Source: Starkeya sp. ORNL1
GTDB taxonomy: Bacteria; Pseudomonadota; Alphaproteobacteria; Rhizobiales; Xanthobacteraceae
Length of the DNA: 64,000 bases
Direction of reading: 5' to 3'
Assembly: GCF_012971745.1 (NCBI RefSeq)
Contig: NZ_CP048834.1
Location: 2,418,001 to 2,482,000 of the forward strand
The notes under the pieces are model-generated. The model searched no databases. It worked only from the letters and a program-made list of their open reading frames with translations, and had not been told where the DNA came from. The position numbers and the translations under genes were made by a program. Shown in pieces: positions 29,595 to 38,351 of the stretch (position 1 is the first letter of the stretch; the number at the start of each line of letters is the position of its first letter).

Positions 29595-30647
29595 TCAGCG
29601 CCAGCCCATGGCGGGTGCCACATGCGTGAGGATCGCCTCGATGACGTGGGCGTTGTACGCGACCCCGAGCTGGTTCGGCACGGTGAGCAGCAGCGTATCG
29701 GCCTCGGCAATGGCCTCGTCCGCCTTCAGCTGCTCAACGAGCCTGTCCGGCTCGGCCGCATAGGAGCGGCCGAAGATCGCCCGCGTGCGCTCATCGATAT
29801 AGCCGATCGAATCCGCCTCCTGCCCCGAGCGGCCGAAATAGGTGCGATCCTCATCGCTCACCAGGGCAAAGATGCTGCGGCTGACCGACACGCGCGGCTG
29901 GCGTGCATGGCCCGCTTCCTTCCAGGCTGAACGATAGGCGCGGATCTGCTTCGCCTGCTGGATATGCAGGGGCTCCCCGCTCTCGTCTTCCTTCAGCGTC
30001 GAGCTTTGCAGGTTCATCCCCAGCTTCGCCGCCCAGACCGCGGTGGCGTTCGAGGATGCGCCCCACCAGATCCGCTCGCGCAGCCCTTCGGCATGCGGCT
30101 CGATGCGCAGCAGGCCCGGCGGGTTCGCGAACATCGGGCGCGGATTGGGTTCTGCGAAGCCCTGGCCCTTCAACAGGTCGAGGAACACTTCGGCGTGGTG
30201 CCGGCCCATGTCGGCGTCGCTCTGCCCCTCGGCCGGGGCGTAGCCGAAATAGCGCCAGCCATCGATCACCTGCTCGGGCGAGCCGCGGCTGATGCCGAGC
30301 TGCAGGCGCCCGCCGGCAATGAGGTCCGCCGCGCCGGCGTCCTCCACCATGTACATCGGGTTCTCGTAGCGCATGTCGATGACCGCGGTGCCGATCTCGA
30401 TCCGGCTGGTCTTCGCGCCGACCGCCGCGAGCAGCGGAAACGGCGAGGCGAGCTGGCGCGCGAAATGGTGGACACGAAAATACGCCCCGTCTGCCCCCAG
30501 CTCTTCGGCGGCGACGGCAAGCTCGATGGACTGCAGCAGCGTGTCGGCGGCCGAGCGGGTCTGCGAATGATTGGTGGGGGACCAATGGCCGAAGGAGAGG
30601 AAACCGATCTTCTTCACGTGCACCCCGGGGATAGCGGTTGCGGACAA
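29595..30647 (-). CDS. LLM-class flavin-dependent oxidoreductase
   Basis: About 350 residues, bacterial-luciferase-like TIM barrel. Family segments are KKIGFLSFGHWSP at the N-terminus, FRVHHFARQLASPFPLLAAVG, RIEIGTAVIDMRYENP and LQLGISRGSPEQVIDGWRYFGY. It is expected to use FMNH2 to oxygenate a small molecule; the substrate is unknown. The start is uncertain: the open frame begins with TTG 30647, and GTG 30623 or 30617 would place KKIGF nearer the N-terminus. A decayed partial copy in the same orientation lies at 37.9-38.35 kb, on the other side of the RiPP locus. Confidence 0.88.
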   Translation of the reverse strand: MSATAIPGVHVKKIGFLSFGHWSPTNHSQTRSAADTLLQSIELAVAAEELGADGAYFRVHHFARQLASPFPLLAAVGAKTSRIEIGTAVIDMRYENPMYMVEDAGAADLIAGGRLQLGISRGSPEQVIDGWRYFGYAPAEGQSDADMGRHHAEVFLDLLKGQGFAEPNPRPMFANPPGLLRIEPHAEGLRERIWWGASSNATAVWAAKLGMNLQSSTLKEDESGEPLHIQQAKQIRAYRSAWKEAGHARQPRVSVSRSIFALVSDEDRTYFGRSGQEADSIGYIDERTRAIFGRSYAAEPDRLVEQLKADEAIAEADTLLLTVPNQLGVAYNAHVIEAILTHVAPAMGWR

Positions 30648-30934: not shown

Positions 30935-31036
30935 TCAGGTCGGCTTGGCCTTCTTGCCGGAAAAGTTCGCACCCGCGGTCACCGCGGAAAGTGTCTCCCG
31001 CTTAACAAGAAGCGGAGTCATATAGACCTTGCTCAT
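30935..31036 (-). CDS. RiPP precursor peptide A
   Basis: 33 residues. The leader begins MSKVYMTPLLVKRE and has the YxxPxL recognition motif at Y5-P8-L10 (here YMTPLL). The invariant segment VTAGANFSGKK is at 19-29, followed by AKPT. It is the most distal gene of the array, 23 bp after precursor B, with AGGA upstream. In place of the Gly usual at position 14 it has Glu (KRETLSA). No family name is known to me; the peptide is identified by its eight relatives and by nearby RiPP maturases. Confidence 0.82.
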   Translation of the reverse strand: MSKVYMTPLLVKRETLSAVTAGANFSGKKAKPT

Positions 31037-31059
31037 GCTGATGTCCTGTTCAAGTCCGG

Positions 31060-31164
31060 CTACGCCGGAGGCTTGCCCTTCTTGCCGGAGAAATTCGCAC
31101 CCGCGGTTACAGCTGAAAGCTGCCCGGATTTCGCCAACGTCGGGCGTGTATAGATCTTTCTCAT
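31060..31164 (-). CDS. RiPP precursor peptide B
   Basis: 34 residues: leader MRKIYTRPTLAKSGQLSA with Y5, P8, L10 and G14, the invariant VTAGANFSGKK at 19-29, then GKPPA. This is the YxxPxLxxxG pattern of lasso-peptide leaders with Thr at the penultimate leader position (T20, if cleavage falls after TA). A good ribosome site (AAGGAG) precedes ATG 31164. Confidence 0.85.
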   Translation of the reverse strand: MRKIYTRPTLAKSGQLSAVTAGANFSGKKGKPPA

Positions 31165-31253
31165 GCCAGCTCCTTGAGTAAAGACTGCGGAATGTTGTTC
31201 CGCCAACATTCCGACCGGCGTTTCGTCTCATTTAAAGGCCAGATCCACTGCTA

Positions 31254-31358
31254 CTACGGAGCGGGCTTGGCCTTCTTTCCGGAAAAATTGGCGCCCGCGG
31301 TGACAGCAGAAAGCTGCCCGGAACGCATCAGTGTCGGACGTGCATAGGATTTCTTCAT
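31254..31358 (-). CDS. RiPP precursor peptide C
   Basis: 34 residues: leader MKKSYARPTLMRSGQLSA, the invariant VTAGANFSGKK, tail AKPAP. AAGGAG precedes ATG 31358. Synonymous codons in the invariant block (GTC ACC GCG GGC GCC AAT TTT) differ from those of its neighbours, so it is not a fresh duplicate. Confidence 0.85.
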   Translation of the reverse strand: MKKSYARPTLMRSGQLSAVTAGANFSGKKAKPAP

Positions 31359-31450
31359 AGGAACTCCTTGGTTGCCGCACTAGAGCGCCCTCCCCAGGCG
31401 CTCCATCATCTAATCGAAGATAACGAGATCCAACTTCATGGACTCCGTCA

Positions 31451-31546
31451 TCAATTCGGGGCCGCCTTGCCCTTCTTGCCGGAGAAATTTGCCCCGGCTG
31501 TCACGGTGGAAAGCTTTCCCCCATCGCCAACACAGGACGCACATAT
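31451..31546 (-). pseudogene. degenerate RiPP precursor copy D
   Basis: The 3' half still encodes LSTVTAGANFSGKK followed by GKAAPN and a stop. The 5' half would read YVRPVLA in another frame: one or two bases have been lost or gained near the G-run at about 31517-31522, and no start codon or ribosome site remains at the expected place. This is a frame-broken member of the array. Confidence 0.7.
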
Positions 31547-31603
31547 GGCCCCTGCACAGGAGCGCCCCAGGTGGCGATCAGAACCGACCCATCGTCTTGA
31601 TGG

Positions 31604-31705
31604 CTATTCGATCTTGCCCTTCTTGCCGGAGAAATTCGCGCCGGCAGTAACGGCGGAAAGCTGTCCGGACTTCACCAATGCCGGACGAGTATATGACTTC
31701 TTCAT
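31604..31705 (-). CDS. RiPP precursor peptide E
   Basis: 33 residues: leader MKKSYTRPALVKSGQLSA, the invariant VTAGANFSGKK, tail GKIE. GAGGAGG lies 4 nt before ATG 31705. It shares its leader with peptide F but has the GK-I-acidic tail also seen in peptide I, the copy at the far end of the locus. Confidence 0.85.
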   Translation of the reverse strand: MKKSYTRPALVKSGQLSAVTAGANFSGKKGKIE

Positions 31706-31759
31706 ATGACCTCCTCAGGTGTAGGACCAAAACTTCGTCGGGTTGACGCCGTCGTCAGA

Positions 31760-31861
31760 TCAGAGCGGCTTGGCCTTCTTGCCGGAAAAGTTTGCGCCGG
31801 CAGTAACGGCGGAAAGCTGACCGGACTTTACCAGTGCCGGACGAGTATATGACTTCTTCAT
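31760..31861 (-). CDS. RiPP precursor peptide F
   Basis: 33 residues: leader MKKSYTRPALVKSGQLSA (identical to E), the invariant VTAGANFSGKK, tail AKPL. The upstream sequence including GAGGAG and the TCATATG context is nearly the same as for E, pointing to a local duplication of this pair. Confidence 0.85.
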   Translation of the reverse strand: MKKSYTRPALVKSGQLSAVTAGANFSGKKAKPL

Positions 31862-31910
31862 ATGAGCTCCTCAGGTGTAGGATCAAAGCTTCGTCGGGCT
31901 TACGCCTTGA

Positions 31911-32015
31911 CTAGGTTGTCGGCTTGGCCTTCTTGCCGGAAAAGTTCGCGCCCGCGGTCACCGCGGAAAGCTGGCCGGATCTCGTGACGACCGGACGTGC
32001 GTACGGCTTTTTCAT
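31911..32015 (-). CDS. RiPP precursor peptide G
   Basis: 34 residues: leader MKKPYARPVVTRSGQLSA, the invariant VTAGANFSGKK, tail AKPTT. GAGGAG precedes ATG 32015. It has Val rather than Leu at position 10 of the YxxPx(L/V) motif. Confidence 0.85.
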   Translation of the reverse strand: MKKPYARPVVTRSGQLSAVTAGANFSGKKAKPTT

Positions 32016-32111
32016 ATGCGCTCCTCAGCGTAAGGCCAGACAACGCCGTCCGCCGGCGATGCGACCATCTGGTTGCCAGCGATGAAAACGAGCGGAGAGC
32101 GTGCCTCGCCG

Positions 32112-32216
32112 CTACCCGACCGGCTTGGCCTTCTTGCCGGAAAAATTCGCGCCAGCGGTCACGGCGGACAGACGCCCGCTCTTTTCGAGTCGCGGCGTTA
32201 CGTAGAGCTTCTTCAT
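32112..32216 (-). CDS. RiPP precursor peptide H
   Basis: 34 residues: leader MKKLYVTPRLEKSGRLSA, the invariant VTAGANFSGKK, tail AKPVG. It is the promoter-proximal gene of the array, head to head with the AMP-ligase operon across 252 bp. The ribosome site is weak (GGGGG about 10 nt upstream). Confidence 0.85.
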   Translation of the reverse strand: MKKLYVTPRLEKSGRLSAVTAGANFSGKKAKPVG

Positions 32217-32309
32217 TGCAAGTGCCCCCACTTACCCCGACAGTTCGGGAATATGACAAAGCTATCGAGGCACTCCTCAACGTCAATGTGTGACGACCCG
32301 AACGCCTTG

Positions 32310-32334
32310 ATGACGCGCGGGAAAGGTGCGTCAT
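32310..32334. promoter_or_regulatory. inverted repeat in the divergent RiPP promoter region
   Basis: ATGACGC (32310-32316) and GCGTCAT (32328-32334) with an 11-nt spacer, midway between precursor H and the AMP-ligase gene. TGTGACGA also occurs twice as a direct repeat nearby (about 32289 and 32335). It is a plausible operator for co-ordinate control of both transcripts; no regulator gene lies in the locus. Confidence 0.4.
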
Positions 32335-32468
32335 GTGACGAAAATAACACGCTCGCCGGTAGCCTTGTATGTGATCGACGTGACAACGGAGATAGACATC
32401 CCTCCACCGCAAATGCCAGTTTTCCGGTGGTCGGCCCTTTCAGACGAGCATGAAGTGCCAAGATTCGC

Positions 32469-33887
32469 ATGCCATCGGTTTCACTCCATGACCTGAATAC
32501 CTTCCCGAGCGCGGCAACACTTGTCGATGTACGGCAAGGTACGTCGCTCTCCCGCGACGAATTGCTGGGGGAAGTGCGCCGGCGCGCGCAGTCGCTGCGC
32601 GAGGCGGGCGTCGAGGCGGGTAGCAGCGTCGTCGTGGGACAGGCGAGCGCGGTGGACTATATCGTCGATCTCTTCGCCCTGTGGTCGCTCGGCGCCATGG
32701 CCGTGGCCGTCGAGCCGAACCTCACCGCCTCCGAACAATCCCTCGTGGCCGAGTCGGTCGGTGCCTTGCTGTGGCGCGGCGAAGATCGCAGGGAGATCGG
32801 AAGCACAAGACCGGAAAAGGGAAGCACGACATCGGATGAGGGCGACGCCCTGGTGCTGCTGACCTCGGGCACGACCGGACGACCCAAGGGGGTTGTCCAT
32901 AGTTGCCACAGTCTCAACAGCCGCATCGAAGCCAATCTCCAGGCGATAGGCCCCGACGACCTCGCCAACACCCTGCTGGTGCTTCCGATCCATTTCGGGC
33001 ACGGCCTGATCGGCAACACGCTGACCGCGCTCGCCGCGGGCGGCACTGTCCATCTGTGGCCCGGCCCGTCCGTGGCGGAGATGAAGGAATTCCCCGCCCT
33101 GGTCGACAACGCTCAGATGTCGTTCATGAGCTCGGTGCCAGCATTCTGGCGAATCGCGCTGCGGGTCGCGCAACGGCCCGCTCGTTCGTTCGCCCGCGTG
33201 CATGTGGGATCGGCGCCGCTGTCGGCGGTGCTGTGGGGACAGATCGCCGATTGGTGCGGCACGCGCCGGGTGTTCAACATGTACGGCATGAGCGAGGCCG
33301 CGAACTGGATTGCCGGAGCATCGATCGAGGACAATGGCGGCGATGGCTTTGTCGGGCGCCCATGGGGCGGCGCCTTCGCGGTGCTGGATGGTTCCGGGGC
33401 GATCAGCCCGTCGGGGTCGGGAGAGGTGCTGGTGCGCAGCCCCTCGATGATGAGCCGCTATTTCGGCCTTCCACAGGAGACGGCGGCCACCTTCGTCGAT
33501 GGATGGCTGAAGACCGGCGACATTGGCCAGCTCGCCGCGGACGGCAACCTTACCCTCGTCGGCAGGTCGAAAAGCGAAATCAATCGAGCGGGCGCGAAGA
33601 TATTGGCGGAAGAGATCGACATGCTGCTGGAGCATCATCCCTTGGTCGTGGAGGCCTGCGCGTTCGGCATGCCGGATGCCGTCGCCGGTGAAGTCGTTGC
33701 CGCGGCGGTCGTGGCGCGCGAGCCCGGCCTCACCGAGGATGACTTGCGCGCCTGGTGCCGCGAGCGATGCCGGCGCGATGCGGTCCCGGCACGGCTGTTC
33801 TTTTTCGACAGCCTGCCGCGGAACGATCGCGGCAAGGTTTCCCGCATCGCAGTGCGCGAGCGCGCGCTCGGCTCCGTGGTGCGCTGA
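32469..33887 (+). CDS. AMP-forming ligase (ANL superfamily) of the RiPP locus
   Basis: A 472-residue acyl/aryl adenylating enzyme. Core motifs: LLTSGTTGRPKGVV (130-143), VHVGSAPLS, MYGMSEAANW, LKTGDIGQLA, RSKSEINRAGAKI and the C-terminal catalytic lysine in NDRGKV (K456). It would activate a carboxylic acid as AMP ester and load it on CoA or, more likely, on the carrier protein encoded two genes downstream. The stop overlaps the GNAT start (TGATG). The substrate is not predictable by eye. It faces away from the precursor array across a shared promoter region. Confidence 0.85.
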   Translation: MPSVSLHDLNTFPSAATLVDVRQGTSLSRDELLGEVRRRAQSLREAGVEAGSSVVVGQASAVDYIVDLFALWSLGAMAVAVEPNLTASEQSLVAESVGALLWRGEDRREIGSTRPEKGSTTSDEGDALVLLTSGTTGRPKGVVHSCHSLNSRIEANLQAIGPDDLANTLLVLPIHFGHGLIGNTLTALAAGGTVHLWPGPSVAEMKEFPALVDNAQMSFMSSVPAFWRIALRVAQRPARSFARVHVGSAPLSAVLWGQIADWCGTRRVFNMYGMSEAANWIAGASIEDNGGDGFVGRPWGGAFAVLDGSGAISPSGSGEVLVRSPSMMSRYFGLPQETAATFVDGWLKTGDIGQLAADGNLTLVGRSKSEINRAGAKILAEEIDMLLEHHPLVVEACAFGMPDAVAGEVVAAAVVAREPGLTEDDLRAWCRERCRRDAVPARLFFFDSLPRNDRGKVSRIAVRERALGSVVR

Positions 33888-34468
33888 TGGCGAAATCAGC
33901 TCATCCTGCCATCGGCACGCCGATCCAAACCGAGCGATTCCTGCTCAAGCCCATCGGACGGCTGGAGACATTCCGCATCAGCTATCCGTGGAACCAGGAT
34001 CCCGAAGTGATGCGCGAGTATTCCGGCTCGGGCGAAGGGCGCGGCCGTCTCCAGTGGTACCGGCACATGCCGCGCGAGAACCGGAAGAACAAGTTCGCGC
34101 ACGCCATTTATCCGATCGGGGCGGAGCAGCCGATCGGCCTGCACTTCATCGAGATCAAGCCCTACAAGACCGCCTACCTCACCATCGTGATCCAGGACCG
34201 CGCCTGGTGGGGCAAGGGCGCTGTATTGGAGATCCGGCAGAAGGTCTTCGACCACGTGATCGAGCACAGTGACGTCGAAAAATTCTCCGGCTTCGTCAAT
34301 TCCCGGAATTTCCCCTCGATATTCAACTACCAGAAGCTTGGCTTCAAGCACGTCGGTACCATGCAACGCACCAAGTTCGATCCGACCACCGGCACCATTT
34401 ACGACACGATGATCTTCGAGATGTTTCGCCACGAGTGGCAAGCGCGGAAGTCGCCGGGCAATGGTTAA
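33887..34468 (+). CDS. GNAT-family acyltransferase of the RiPP locus
   Basis: A 193-residue RimJ/RimL-like N-acyltransferase. The acyl-donor loop is in IQDRAWWGKGAV (about 100-111), and the C-terminal SRNFPSIFNYQKLGFKHVG is the usual GNAT beta-bulge region. Wedged between an acyl-activating ligase and an acyl carrier protein, it is the obvious candidate to move an acyl group to an amine. The conserved lysines of the precursor core are likely targets, since Lys acylation by GNATs is known in some RiPPs (albusnodin, selidamides). It is translationally coupled on both sides. Confidence 0.8.
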   Translation: MAKSAHPAIGTPIQTERFLLKPIGRLETFRISYPWNQDPEVMREYSGSGEGRGRLQWYRHMPRENRKNKFAHAIYPIGAEQPIGLHFIEIKPYKTAYLTIVIQDRAWWGKGAVLEIRQKVFDHVIEHSDVEKFSGFVNSRNFPSIFNYQKLGFKHVGTMQRTKFDPTTGTIYDTMIFEMFRHEWQARKSPGNG

Positions 34469-34703
34469 TTCGCATCTGGCCGAGGCCAAGGGCCTGATCG
34501 CAGGCTGCGTCAATCAACCCGCTGCTGCCGTCGCCGACGATGCCGCCATCGGCACGCTGGAGGGCTGGGACAGCATCGCCCACATCTCCATCGTGCTGGC
34601 GATCGAAGCGCGCGTCGGGCGAAACCTGACGAGCGACGAGATCATCGCCGTCACCGGCGTTGCCAGCGTGGCCGACATCCTCAAGCAGGCGGATGGCCCA
34701 TGA
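34461..34703 (+). CDS. acyl carrier protein of the RiPP locus
   Basis: An 80-residue carrier protein. The phosphopantetheine attachment Ser38 is in EGWDSIAHISIVLAIE, followed by the usual fourth-helix pattern (LTSDEIIAVTGVASVADIL). It overlaps the GNAT stop by 8 bp and the nucleotidyltransferase start by 4 bp, so all four genes are coupled. It would hold the acyl group made by the AMP ligase. A dedicated ACP is unusual beside lasso-type B1/B2 genes. Confidence 0.85.
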   Translation: MVNSHLAEAKGLIAGCVNQPAAAVADDAAIGTLEGWDSIAHISIVLAIEARVGRNLTSDEIIAVTGVASVADILKQADGP

Positions 34704-35719
34704 CCAGGCAGCGGAGTTCCCTCGCGCCCGACGAGAAGCGGCTGCTCTGCTTCCACGCAGACCCGCGGAACCCGCCGCCGGAGACGCTCGACTGGCCGGA
34801 GCCGATGTTCGAGCGCATCCTCGATGCTGCGCAGGATCATGGCGTGCTCGCCATCGTCTGGCGAAAGCTGCGCGGCCCGTCCCGGGCGGCCGCGTCGAGC
34901 GAGGGCTTCAGGAAGCGGCTGGCACGCATCGAGGAGGAGCATACGCTCGGCGTCGGCCAATCCATGCTGCTCCGGCACCATGCCGCCCGCATCTCGAAAT
35001 TGCTGCGCGAACAGGGCATTCCGGCCGAGATCGTGAAGGGGCCGGTGTTCGCCGATCACCTCTACGAGCACCCGTCGGACCGGCCTTTCACCGACATCGA
35101 CATACTCGCCGACGTGAATGATCTCCTGCGCATCGGCGGCGTGGTGGAAGCCTGCGGCTTCGAGCGCGACGCCAAGGCCTGGGACAATTCGGAGCGGTAC
35201 CAGGAGTATAAATGGTACCTGCGCGGCAACGACTCCATCATGGTCGAAGTGCAGGGCAACATGGTGCATTACCCTGCCCTGCGGCGCCGGCTGTCCTTCG
35301 GCTATGCCGAGTTGAAGGCGGCCAGCCCGGGCGATGAGCAATCCGCGGTCGCGATGCTGCTGATCGCGGTGGTGCATGCGCTGGGCGGGCACAAATTCCA
35401 CCGGCTGCTGTTCGCCGTGGATATCGCCCAGGCGGCGCGCCGGATCAGCGATCCCAGGGAAATGGTCCGCGCGGCCGAAAGGCTCGGCGCCGCGCTCGAG
35501 GTCCGCACCGCGCTCAGCGTGACCTCCCGGCTGTTCCAAGATGCCGGGATCGAGGCGCTCGCCCATCATTTCCCCGAGGGCCCGAGGGCGAGGCTGGGCC
35601 AGCGGCTGATGAACGAAGATTCCGTGCTGGATGCCATGCCGAAGACCAGCCGGGCCTCCCATCTGCGCCGCCACGGCTTCCGCTGGCTGCAGATGCTGGG
35701 GCCCGGCGCGCAGTCCTAG
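34700..35719 (+). CDS. nucleotidyltransferase-like protein (NTP_transf_5 type)
   Basis: A 339-residue protein of the family often found with PqqD-like and HPr-kinase-like genes in RiPP loci. The nucleotidyltransferase core is near 105-150: GIPAEIVKGPVFADHLY, then RPFTDIDILAD, with the metal ligands Asp132 and Asp134. The C-terminal half is helical. Its substrate and its role in peptide maturation are unknown; modification of the peptide with a nucleotide or sugar-nucleotide, or regulation, are open. It ends 28 bp before the converging kinase gene. Confidence 0.75.
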   Translation: MTRQRSSLAPDEKRLLCFHADPRNPPPETLDWPEPMFERILDAAQDHGVLAIVWRKLRGPSRAAASSEGFRKRLARIEEEHTLGVGQSMLLRHHAARISKLLREQGIPAEIVKGPVFADHLYEHPSDRPFTDIDILADVNDLLRIGGVVEACGFERDAKAWDNSERYQEYKWYLRGNDSIMVEVQGNMVHYPALRRRLSFGYAELKAASPGDEQSAVAMLLIAVVHALGGHKFHRLLFAVDIAQAARRISDPREMVRAAERLGAALEVRTALSVTSRLFQDAGIEALAHHFPEGPRARLGQRLMNEDSVLDAMPKTSRASHLRRHGFRWLQMLGPGAQS

Positions 35720-35747
35720 GACCGCTTTCGTTCGGACGGACCGGGCG

Positions 35748-36752
35748 TCAGTCGATTGAACCCGACACCGCCGCGAGGATCCGCGCGGGCACATTCTCCT
35801 GGTCCGCGCCGATGCGCAGCTCGAACACCGGCGAGGAGGCGATCAGCCGCGCCAGCTGGGTCCAGCGCCTCGCCTGGTGCTCCAGCACGCCGGTCCGGCT
35901 GCCCCGCACATTGTCGGCCGCCAGCGCCGCCAGCGCCTCGGCCTTGTTCAGGCGGGCGACGCCGCCCGGCTGGTCGGTGCGCGAGAGCATGAACACCCCG
36001 ACCACGGCGCGCGGGCGCGCATCCTCGATCCGGACGAGCGTGGCCAGCGTGTGGAGCGGCACTTCCTGCTCGTTCTCGCTGTCCCATTGCCCGGTGAGCG
36101 AAGGGGCCAGCCACGGCAGCATGCGCGCGGTGTTGGCATGCACCTTGAGATAGCGCGGTATGCCCCACGCCGACATGCCCGCCTCGGTGGGCGCCAGCAC
36201 CATGGCATCATCCGAGCAGAGGCCGAAGCCGGCACGGGCGAGGTTCAGTGCCGTGGTGGTCTTGCCGGTGCCGCTCGCCGCATAGAGCAGCACGAGATCA
36301 TCGGTGCCCGGCAGCGTGAGCCCCGCGGCATGCACGCTGGCCTGGCCGAACGAATCGATCGCGGCCTCAAGCGCCAGCATGCCGGCGGTCCCGGCGGCCC
36401 GGATCTCCGCGCCATCCAGCGTCGTGAGGTCGGCCACGCGGCCGGAGGGCTGGATGTGCAGCGAGACATCGTCGGCAAGCAGGAGCAGATCGTCCTCGCC
36501 CTTGAACAGCGTGTAATCGCCATCGTCGAGCACCGGGCCCGCATAGACGAGCTGGTCGGCGGAGCGGGCGGCATGGAGTGGGCCGCGGCTCACGCGGATG
36601 CGGAAGTCCGGCGTTCCCTGCTGCCGGGCGCGCAGCGCCCCGACGAAGGCCTCCAGATGCCCGATCGCGGCCTCGCTGTCGGCCTCGATCTGCAGCACAT
36701 GGCCGCCCAGCACATATTGGCGAATCACCTGTTCCATCTGCACCGCGGTCAC
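35748..36752 (-). CDS. HPr-kinase-like protein of the RiPP locus
   Basis: A 334-residue P-loop protein. Walker A is ASGTGKTT (159-166), followed by LCSDDAMVL (Asp181-Asp182), as in HprK/PEP-carboxykinase-like kinases. Members in lasso loci such as paeninodin phosphorylate the precursor on Ser. The invariant core here has a single Ser (S5 of GANFSG) that could be a target. The start overlaps the B2 stop by ATGA, making it the last gene of the minus-strand maturase operon. Confidence 0.8.
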   Translation of the reverse strand: MTAVQMEQVIRQYVLGGHVLQIEADSEAAIGHLEAFVGALRARQQGTPDFRIRVSRGPLHAARSADQLVYAGPVLDDGDYTLFKGEDDLLLLADDVSLHIQPSGRVADLTTLDGAEIRAAGTAGMLALEAAIDSFGQASVHAAGLTLPGTDDLVLLYAASGTGKTTTALNLARAGFGLCSDDAMVLAPTEAGMSAWGIPRYLKVHANTARMLPWLAPSLTGQWDSENEQEVPLHTLATLVRIEDARPRAVVGVFMLSRTDQPGGVARLNKAEALAALAADNVRGSRTGVLEHQARRWTQLARLIASSPVFELRIGADQENVPARILAAVSGSID

Positions 36753-37159
36753 ACGCGATGGACGTGGATGGTCACCATGTCCGGATCCTTGTCACTCAGC
36801 ACCGGCACATTGTCGATGCATACCCAGCAATGCGCGGCGAGCGCCGGAGCGTTCAGCGAATCGGGCTTGATGCCGAACCGCAGCTCGGGCTTCAGCCCGG
36901 CCTGCGCCATGTAGCCGAAGGCCAGCAGGCCCTGCCGCAGGCACTTGCGGTCGCGCATCAGGATGGGATTGCGCGTCGCCTTGCGCACCGCCCGGCTGAT
37001 ATAGTGCGCCGGCAGGCCGCTATAGAGCCGGTTCGGCCGGCTCGGAACCACCGCCAGCACATCCTCGAACGACTTGCCGGCGAGCTGGAACGGCAGGAGC
37101 CGCGCCGCGAGCCAGAGCTCGGCGCGAAACCTCACCCTTGTGGCCAGCGACAGCGGCAT
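36749..37159 (-). CDS. lasso-peptide B2-type leader protease
   Basis: A 136-residue transglutaminase-fold cysteine protease. The catalytic Cys73 is in MRDRKCLRQGLLAFGYMAQAG, His110 in ALAAHCWVCIDN and the likely Asp is Asp116, the normal B2 order and spacing (C-LxxGLxxxxxL; AHxWV). It should cut precursor leaders after the conserved Thr-x, here after VTA, freeing Gly-1. It is 8 bp after the PqqD-like gene, a split B1/B2 pair as in many proteobacterial lasso loci. Confidence 0.85.
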   Translation of the reverse strand: MPLSLATRVRFRAELWLAARLLPFQLAGKSFEDVLAVVPSRPNRLYSGLPAHYISRAVRKATRNPILMRDRKCLRQGLLAFGYMAQAGLKPELRFGIKPDSLNAPALAAHCWVCIDNVPVLSDKDPDMVTIHVHRV

Positions 37160-37167
37160 GGTCCTGC

Positions 37168-37458
37168 TCAGTTGACCCGCCGGATGATCTGCTCGTCCAG
37201 CAGCTGGCTCGCCAGCCCGCCGAAATCATCCGAGAGCGTCGCCGAATCGGCTTCGAACTCGACGCCGAGCAGTTCGATCACCTCCGAGAAGGTGCGCTGC
37301 CCGTCGAGCTTCGACAGGAACGCCTCGGTCGTCTCGTTGCAAGTGTAGAGCTGGCCGGTGTCGGTGAGCAGCACCACCGCCCCATCGCCGACCGACTGCA
37401 TGGAAGCGTGGTCCCGGAGCGTGAACACGGCGGACGAATCAATAGCTGGCATGAGCAT
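37168..37458 (-). CDS. PqqD-like RiPP recognition element (lasso B1-type)
   Basis: A 96-residue PqqD-fold protein: strands in VGDGAVVLLTDTGQLYTCNETTEAFL, then helices (FSEVIELLGVEFEADSATLSDDFGGLASQLLDEQIIRRV). Such proteins bind the YxxP motif of leader peptides and bring them to the B2 protease. ATG 37458 has GGAG 5 nt upstream; ATG 37452 and TTG 37461 are alternatives. It follows precursor I in the same operon. Confidence 0.82.
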   Translation of the reverse strand: MLMPAIDSSAVFTLRDHASMQSVGDGAVVLLTDTGQLYTCNETTEAFLSKLDGQRTFSEVIELLGVEFEADSATLSDDFGGLASQLLDEQIIRRVN

Positions 37459-37562
37459 CAAGTCTCCGCTGCCATCGGCTCCCTCGGGGGCCGCAGGCGG
37501 CGCAATGGATGAACCGGCCCGACAAGTCGAGCCGATTCACCAACATGAACTGTAGGCGCGGC

Positions 37563-37664
37563 TTAGTCGATCTTGCCCTTCTTGCCGGAGAAATTGGCTC
37601 CGGCCGTAACAATCGACAAGATCTGAGCCCTGATCAGCTTCGGCGTCTCATAAGTCTTCCGCAT
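37563..37664 (-). CDS. RiPP precursor peptide I, heading the maturase operon
   Basis: 33 residues: leader MRKTYETPKLIRAQILSI with Y5, P8 and L10 but Ala for G13-14, the invariant VTAGANFSGKK, tail GKID. GGGGGA precedes it; a second ATG two codons upstream (37670) is closer to that site. It lies 105 bp before the PqqD-like gene and reads into it. Its leader is the most diverged of the nine, yet its core block is unchanged. Confidence 0.85.
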   Translation of the reverse strand: MRKTYETPKLIRAQILSIVTAGANFSGKKGKID

Positions 37665-37869: not shown

Positions 37870-38351
37870 AGACCGGCCGGTATCTCCAGCCCGCACCACT
37901 GACGTCAAGTTGCAGGCGCCTGCCAGCGATAAGGTCCGCCGCGCCGGCGTCCTCGACCATGTACATCGGGTTCACGTAGCGCATGTCGATGACTGCAGCG
38001 CCGATCTCAATCCGGCTGGCCTTCGCACCAACCGCCGCGAGCAGCAGAAAGGGCGAGGCGAGCTAGTGCGCGAAATGGTGGACACGGAAATACGCCCCGT
38101 CCGCCCTCAGCTCTTAGGCGGCGACGGCAAGTTCGATGGACTGCAGCAGCGTGGCGGTGGCCGAGCGGGTCTGCGAATGGGTGGAGGGCGACCAATGGCC
38201 GAAGGAGAGGAAACCGATCTTCTTCGAGTGGGCACCGGGGAATTGCGTGACGGGCATGGGTTCTGGTGCCCCGTCAGTTGATCGCCGGCGTGCGATTTGT
38301 GATGCCTCGCGATCCGCAATTTTGCAGAACCGATGACGCATCAATGCAGTG
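37870..38351 (-). pseudogene. decayed partial copy of the LLM flavin oxidoreductase gene
   Basis: Aligns with 30301-30743, that is, the 5' part of the intact gene at 29595-30647 and about 95 bp upstream of it. Readable pieces are KKIGFLSFGHWSPS, LLQSIELAVAA-stop and RYVNPMYMVEDAGAADLIAG. At least two nonsense changes (AA-stop-E, FAH-stop-L) and a deletion before GWRY are present, and the remaining two thirds are gone. Same strand as the intact copy. Confidence 0.85.

Follow-up and report, generated by a model that had tools for sequence, protein, structure and literature searches.

Phosphorylation of core serines by HprK-like kinases is known, among ribosomally synthesized and post-translationally modified peptides (RiPPs), from the linear polyphosphorylated peptides (LPPs), which carry the modification at Ser3 and according to their description (Popov et al. 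2026; PMC13381572) occur in Bacillota alone, and from certain lasso peptides, in which it affects the C-terminal serine of paeninodin and Ser3 of Bsf (PMC9266682, PMC10368454). A His-Lys-Asp-Asp motif is reported for the lasso kinases (PMC9266682), and lasso leaders are reported to obey a rule of Thr at position -2 (PMC10368454). Lipidation of RiPPs by GNAT acyltransferases has been described at the N terminus of microvionin, the goadvionins and the lipoavitides, and on Lys/Orn side chains of the selidamides (PMC13060382). Here we analyze a locus at positions 30935-37664 of a 64,000-nucleotide stretch of the Starkeya sp. ORNL1 genome (the window; L- and G-numbers below denote fetched loci or regions and genomes, respectively), which consists of seven intact precursor genes and one broken precursor gene on the minus strand, seven enzyme genes, and then a ninth precursor gene. 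We consider it probable that this locus is a cyclase-free relative of the phosphorylated-lasso pathways, which would produce short linear peptides bearing a phosphate on a core Ser/Thr and an acyl group at the N terminus.

The precursors of the array are encoded by minus-strand genes of 33-34 codons each. The preliminary description of this DNA had reported seven intact tandem mini-genes, a broken one and a distant ninth with a common block, and both the coordinates and the block, V-T-A-G-A-N-F-S-G-K-K-[A/G]-K, were confirmed, the latter in 9/9 precursors. Val codons in the block indeed differ between copies, with GTG, GTA, GTC and GTT all found, and a variable tail does follow the block, although it comprises 2-4 residues and not 2-5. 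In the broken copy, the pieces of which lie within 31451-31557, the frame change falls in the leader; this copy was excluded from all counts. All 8 intact genes start with ATG, and their starts are preceded by AGGA or GGAG in six cases and by GGGGG in two (32112-32216 and 37563-37664). A scan of the sequence for promoters and terminators recovered no signal exceeding shuffled controls.

The invariance first claimed for the block holds within the window's lineage but not between genera. Relatives from other genera share MKKxYxxPxLxKRxxLSxVTA, whereas the sequence beyond it differs completely; because only the leader is shared, the block is best understood as the end of a leader joined to a lineage-specific core. 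VTAGANFSGKK[AG]K would accordingly span the leader/core boundary, with a lasso-type leader of ~21 residues (YxxPxLxKxxxLSxVTA in this lineage) ending in VTA, which places Thr at -2, and a core starting with GANFSGKK. This core is under strong purifying selection in the window's lineage: across the 13 intact copies of the window's genome the ratio of nonsynonymous to synonymous change (pN/pS) is 0.019 for the 8-residue core versus 0.40 for the leader, and across 25 copies from two genomes it is 0.038 versus 0.40, which upholds the earlier proposal that such selection keeps the block constant.

For comparison across genera, candidate precursors were at first required to contain T.[GAS], and the leader profile built from them ignored the cores. 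Leader-profile matches scoring <15 (e.g. L033:4904-4993 and L045:9327-9431) were dropped from one precursor set, and the L104 peptide, a classic lasso, from a second; L171 was omitted as a repeat of L030, and an incomplete precursor in L040 allowed no anchoring. Among the 101 anchored precursors, Thr is found at -2 in 84, as in all window copies, and Ala at -1 in 99, so that these predicted leaders are in line with the lasso Thr(-2) rule. Cores are mostly 6-17 residues long. In a set drawn from 38 loci and reduced to 68 non-redundant cores, with positions counted from an assumed cut after T-A, Ser/Thr occurs at position 4 or 5 in 57, while shuffling residues 1-9 within each core gave a mean of 29.8 and a maximum of 43 in 20,000 trials. 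All 68 cores have Ser/Thr among their first ten residues. A smaller first set of 40 cores, superseded by the above, had Ser/Thr at 4-5 in 30, a value reached by 1/20,000 shuffles. The Ser/Thr at 4/5 is the sole core feature that we found common to genera, and would fit the target of a kinase.

RiPP or acyl-transfer roles had been assigned to the seven surrounding genes, and the profile matches bear this out (Table 1). The genes for the ligase, GNAT, acyl carrier protein (ACP) and nucleotidyltransferase (NTF) share one orientation and overlap at their ends, such that the ligase-GNAT-ACP triad overlaps the NTF gene, and those for the kinase, the leader peptidase B2, the RiPP recognition element (RRE) protein B1 and the precursors are oriented the opposite way. 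Active-site residues of B2, the kinase, the ACP and the ligase are conserved across loci: Cys73 and His110 in B2, which is the single NF033537 match in the window's genome; His141, Lys164, Asp181 and Asp182 in the kinase, equivalent to the His-Lys-Asp-Asp of lasso kinases; the W36-D37-S38 motif in the ACP, whose family is present in 24/26 loci; and TSGTTGxPKG and K456 in the ligase, the predicted role of which is to charge the ACP with an acid. D132 and D134 are conserved in the NTF, for which a role like that of PsmN/LppN appears plausible. A fold search with the NTF gave no match at E <= 0.001, with weak matches to nucleotidyltransferases, and a PDB sequence search with B2 and the NTF found no match. 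The GNAT model (pLDDT 87) retrieved GNATs of the RimL/RimJ/SpeG type at the top of a Foldseek search, in which RimL, an alpha-N-acetyltransferase, ranked 10th and a lasso acetyltransferase 32nd. GNAT relatives in a large protein collection are few (10/23 candidates at E <= 1e-10, in a search that needs shared 5-residue words), and none was found in plasmid and viral collections. The window's genome also encodes a distant paralogue of the GNAT (L215, C1:1661382-1661912), in the vicinity of which the ligase and the ACP have weak matches.

Table 1. Precursor and enzyme genes of the locus (window coordinates)
Feature	Position	Strand	Evidence or core
Precursor 1	30935..31036	-	core GANFSGKKAKPT
Precursor 2	31060..31164	-	core GANFSGKKGKPPA
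Precursor 3	31254..31358	-	core GANFSGKKAKPAP
Precursor 4, broken	31451..31557	-	YVRPVL leader part and VTAGANFSGKKGK part in different frames
Precursor 5	31604..31705	-	core GANFSGKKGKIE
Precursor 6	31760..31861	-	core GANFSGKKAKPL
Precursor 7	31911..32015	-	core GANFSGKKAKPTT
Precursor 8	32112..32216	-	core GANFSGKKAKPVG
AMP-dependent acid ligase (ANL family)	32469..33887	+	PF00501 159.7 bits, PF13193 54.9 bits
GNAT N-acyltransferase, RimL/RimJ-like	33887..34468	+	PF13302 38.7 bits
ACP	34461..34703	+	PF00550 15 bits, under cut-off 20.8; W36-D37-S38 motif
NTP_transf_5 'nucleotidyltransferase' (NTF)	34700..35719	+	PF14907 93.6 bits
HprK-like kinase	35748..36752	-	weak HprK matches, below curated cut-offs
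Lasso-type leader peptidase B2	36749..37159	-	NF033537 57 bits, cut-off 33
PqqD-like RRE, B1	37168..37461	-	PF05402 34.2 bits (cut-off 23.4); NF033530 27.7 bits (under cut-off 70)
Precursor 9	37563..37664	-	core GANFSGKKGKID

Scanning the GNAT alignment against one genome per species yielded 25 loci, one of which, L050, was excluded as spurious. All seven genes are present in 13/25 loci (L026-L029, L032-L038, L044 and L046), which belong to several genera, and L030 holds six, with B2 on another contig. Ten of these 13 full loci also contain precursors that match the leader profile. In an all-against-all comparison, each of the seven gene families was present in 14 to 26 of the 26 loci (window included); the remaining families represent shadow frames of these genes or are confined to <=8 loci, the largest of them being a generic ABC ATPase. 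Of the ten other GNAT genomes (L030 and L050 set aside), four (L031, L040, L041, L043) have B2, kinase and NTF genes like those of the window as a set elsewhere in the genome. Gene order around the triad varies between loci, and L030 contains a tandem pair of GNAT genes within one cluster (L030:10001-11111). No lasso cyclase is in view at the window or the full loci. An asparagine-synthase-like gene in L027 was considered as a lasso cyclase and rejected, as it scores above the threshold for ordinary asparagine synthase but below that for lasso cyclases; the two PF00733 genes of the window's genome are both distant from the locus.

We also surveyed 397 genomes of the order, of which 26 contain B2. 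Lasso-type cyclase clusters were present in 11 of the 30 regions around the B2 matches, and 16 regions have window-like B1, B2, kinase and NTF genes without a cyclase of their own, one of these sharing L106 with a classic cluster; four (L101, L105, L115, L125) fit neither type clearly. In a kinase tree, which was made by a quick method from 42/45 rows (those <190 residues being left out) and has several long branches, the 31 cyclase-free rows were separated from the cyclase-linked rest with a support of 98. The triad label is scattered within this cyclase-free group, with 7 changes, at least 3 of them forced. Including the window's, 17 genomes of the order have the cyclase-free B2 set and 8 have a strong GNAT match. 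Ligase-like matches near some cyclase-free loci were considered as variant ligases and rejected: among those inspected, one resembles acetyl-CoA synthetase, another is a fusion of MFS, acyltransferase and AMP-ligase parts, and two are different AMP-binding enzymes. We provisionally treat these genes as neighbours.

From these gene families and their conserved residues we infer the following scheme. B1 would bind the YxxPxL element of the leader, as suggested by its family and the conservation of that element. The HprK-like kinase would then place a phosphate on the Ser/Thr at position 4-5 of the core, Ser5 in GANFSGKK; to this phosphate the NTF may add a sugar or a nucleotide, as proposed for PsmK/PsmN. 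B2 would cleave after T-A; finally, the ligase would charge the ACP with an acid and the GNAT would transfer the acyl group to the newly exposed alpha-amine. Because 38/58 non-redundant cores of the genomes with the triad lack Lys, the freed N terminus would be the simplest general acyl acceptor. The product is predicted to be linear.

Several observations weigh against parts of this scheme. Foremost among them, the GNAT is absent from 13/17 genomes with the cyclase-free B2 set, and therefore acylation does not appear integral to the wider cyclase-free group. Conversely, 4/8 strong-GNAT genomes have no B2 match, two of them with ligase, GNAT and ACP together and two with only GNAT and ACP near a contig end, which implies that the triad can serve other ends; the triads L211 and L212, from genomes without a B2 match, have no leader-type precursor in the stretch and likely act on another substrate. 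At the scale of the 24 GNAT genomes, no B2 was detected at E <= 1e-5 in five, several of them partial (L042, L045, L047, L048, L049), with no full-length ligase in view either in L042, L045 and L049, and the only B2 in L039 is of the cyclase type. The 13 genomes without the GNAT and the two complete triads without a B2 match lend some weight to an explanation in which a linear phospho(glyco)peptide is made by B1, B2, the kinase and the NTF, while the triad merely adjoins them and acylates something unrelated, as do the variable gene order and the case of G554, in which the triad and the B2 set lie ~130 kb apart. We nevertheless regard such an arrangement as unlikely, since the triad adjoins the B2 set in 13/25 loci of several genera, it overlaps the NTF gene in the window, and the two co-occur in the order sample (both 4, B2 set only 13, GNAT only 4, neither 376; Fisher p 1.5e-4, for a strong GNAT match defined by E <= 1e-30, a threshold chosen after seeing the matches). 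Somewhat less probable still is that the triad acylates a Lys side chain of the core in the manner of the selidamides. The Lys-rich and nearly invariant GANFSGKK core would permit this in the window's species, and side-chain lipidation by GNATs is known from the selidamides, one of which comes from a marine alphaproteobacterium (PMC13060382), but the many triad-genome cores without Lys and the RimL-like fold, which suits an alpha-amine, speak against it. Among proteins of solved structure, the ligase is best matched by ligases of oxalate, salicylate and fatty acids. No dedicated exporter recurs across the 26 loci, in which a generic ABC family is found in 8.

The absence of a cyclase also deserves scrutiny. 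In five genomes of one genus, a classic lasso cluster lies 12-29 kb from the cyclase-free set, and in these genomes a cyclase could conceivably act in trans; the L105 kinase, with no cyclase in view, groups with the cyclase rows; and 20/68 cores have D/E at positions 7-9, 3 of these also with Gly1. The reliance of the core positions on the assumed cut is a further point of caution. Yet the view that the locus is a lasso cluster decaying after loss of its cyclase, which B1, B2, the Thr(-2), Gly1 and the broken precursor copy might suggest, is largely contradicted: no lasso cyclase is in view at related loci, the active-site residues and the core are conserved, and the window's cores, GANFSGKK[AG]K, have Gly1 without D/E at positions 7-9. 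We also find it improbable, though less so, that the peptide serves as scaffold or carrier for the assembly and subsequent release of a small molecule. The many near-identical substrate genes and the combination of an ATP-dependent ligase with a carrier protein might be taken to favor a scaffold, but it is the core and not the leader that is most constrained in this lineage, and cores differ freely between genera. We retain the linear, phosphorylated and N-terminally acylated peptide as our preferred interpretation.

Precursor genes are not confined to the locus. Away from it, the window's genome has a further five that encode precursors of the GANFSGKK type, including one that reads GASFSGKK, and hence nine is not the total number. 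By eye, the upstream stretches of these five copies are closely alike in three and partly so in two, and a hairpin-like repeat follows each of them, on account of which each seems to be a transcription unit of its own. Three copies belong to a second precursor type, in which SSVT[AP]APVSRS is followed by a longer tail rich in Ser/Thr (C1:1718047, 1565224 and 214041; L018:7436-7597, L023:7213-7377), one of them weak (E 0.0027); ~400 nt separate the copy at 1718047 from a GANFSGKK copy downstream of it, and the weak copy at 214041 likewise lies just upstream of one. Precursor matches at E <= 0.01 were found in 15/15 related genomes probed (weakest 0.0075), many of them off the main locus, with matches on many contigs in several genomes and 21 matches in G583. 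A family-level search with a single precursor matched 2/198 genomes, namely the window's own and one with a weak match inside a 372-codon frame. Pfam searches with ten genes adjoining scattered precursors revealed no shared theme. The scattered precursors are probably matured in trans by the single maturase set, which would serve the local array as well.

Some precursors have unusual settings or extensions. Ten tandem precursors with cores mostly of the form QxxS (L164:4970-6747) lie away from the maturases, flanked by genes for a phage-type integrase and an L,D-transpeptidase, and another precursor (L181:4152-4403) bears a long GPGGPGG-repeat tail. In four more (L166:4294-4611 and L175:3890-4213, minus strand; L044:11962-12363, plus strand; L129:7757-8152, minus strand), a leader of the same type and a short core are followed by a Peptidase_S74 domain starting with SD[IR]RLK, and PF13884 scores above its cut-off in 4/4. 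Peptidase_S74 domains cleave themselves by means of a Ser-Lys dyad. The domain might thus be a removable follower that cleaves itself off these precursors. More tentatively, the entire system could be viewed as a RiPP class for which we found no published description, comprising N-acylated, phospho(nucleotidyl/glycosyl)-linear peptides of Alphaproteobacteria, in which the lasso apparatus exchanged its cyclase for ligase-ACP-GNAT and received substrates in trans from many dispersed genes, some of them with a possibly self-cutting Peptidase_S74.

In the window, the cluster is flanked by repeats at 30289-30588 and 37899-38198 (89% over 300 nt), which we take to be the 5' part of a gene for an LLM-like flavin oxidoreductase, the right-hand one (37899-38198) being a gene fragment. 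This repeat pair was not found at the sister locus L026.

If the favored interpretation is correct, a cyclase-free phosphorylated lasso-type branch extends from Bacillota to Alphaproteobacteria, the B1/B2 leader machinery is reusable for acyl capping, and a single maturase set can serve many dispersed substrates with freely evolving cores. Its small parts (cores mostly of 6-17 residues, separate B1 and B2) open the system to direct tests and to potential use in acylating peptides.

The combination of genes had been suggested to be unlike any described RiPP class. Searches of open-licence literature, which leaves subscription papers mostly uncovered, indeed showed no description of the B1/B2/kinase/NTF set with a ligase, ACP and GNAT, but a cyclase-free relative, LPP, has been described (PMC13381572). 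The GNAT-lipidated RiPPs resemble the window in pairing a GNAT with a ribosomal peptide, acylation being predicted in the latter; however, those described in the available accounts are lanthipeptides, whereas the window has a lasso-type leader, B1/B2 and a kinase, and no lanthionine synthetase was detected by Pfam among its seven genes, to which that search was confined within the genome. Likewise, selidamide-type GNATs are described with NHLP or Nif11 leaders, in contrast to the short lasso-type leader seen here. Albusnodin-type acetylated lassos (PMC9266682; PDB 9iy3) also have a GNAT beside lasso genes, but the acetyl is described on a Lys of a threaded lasso, whereas the window has its own ligase and ACP and no cyclase. 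A further correspondence is seen with the phosphorylated lassos, in the accounts of which paeninodin, pseudomycoidin (PsmK/PsmN) and Bsf share with the window a kinase, a lasso RRE and a leader peptidase, and two of the three also a nucleotidyltransferase; four of the seven genes (B1, B2, kinase and 'nucleotidyltransferase') are this known set. The B1 RRE, B2 and the Thr(-2) of lassos are all present in the window, and the leader of Bsf has YxxPxL as well, although with Ile at -2 where the window precursors have Thr. Nonetheless, phosphorylated lassos have a cyclase and a ring-forming acidic residue, while no macrolactam cyclase C was found in the window region searched and the window's cores have no D/E at 7-9 beside Gly1. 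The nearest described kind is LPP, which is linear, phosphorylated and cyclase-free. As described, LPP loci share with the window a discrete RRE, an HprK-like kinase, an NTP transferase, the lack of a macrolactam cyclase, YxxP leaders, variable cores and a patchy spread. They differ in the leader, YxxPxVLxHQxIxFETxxS versus YxxPxLxKxxxLSxVTA, in an MsbA-like transporter, and in a leader peptidase like signal peptidase I, where the window's genome gave no TIGR02228 match (SipW/archaeal type) at E <= 0.01 and has B2 instead; moreover, the account reports no acyl arm, the word part 'acyl' being absent from its main text (PMC13381572). With respect to the polyphosphorylated core Ser of LPPs, what the sequences show here is a positional Ser/Thr bias. 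Because the peptidase, leader, phylum and acyl arm differ, we file the window's set as a variant and not as a member.

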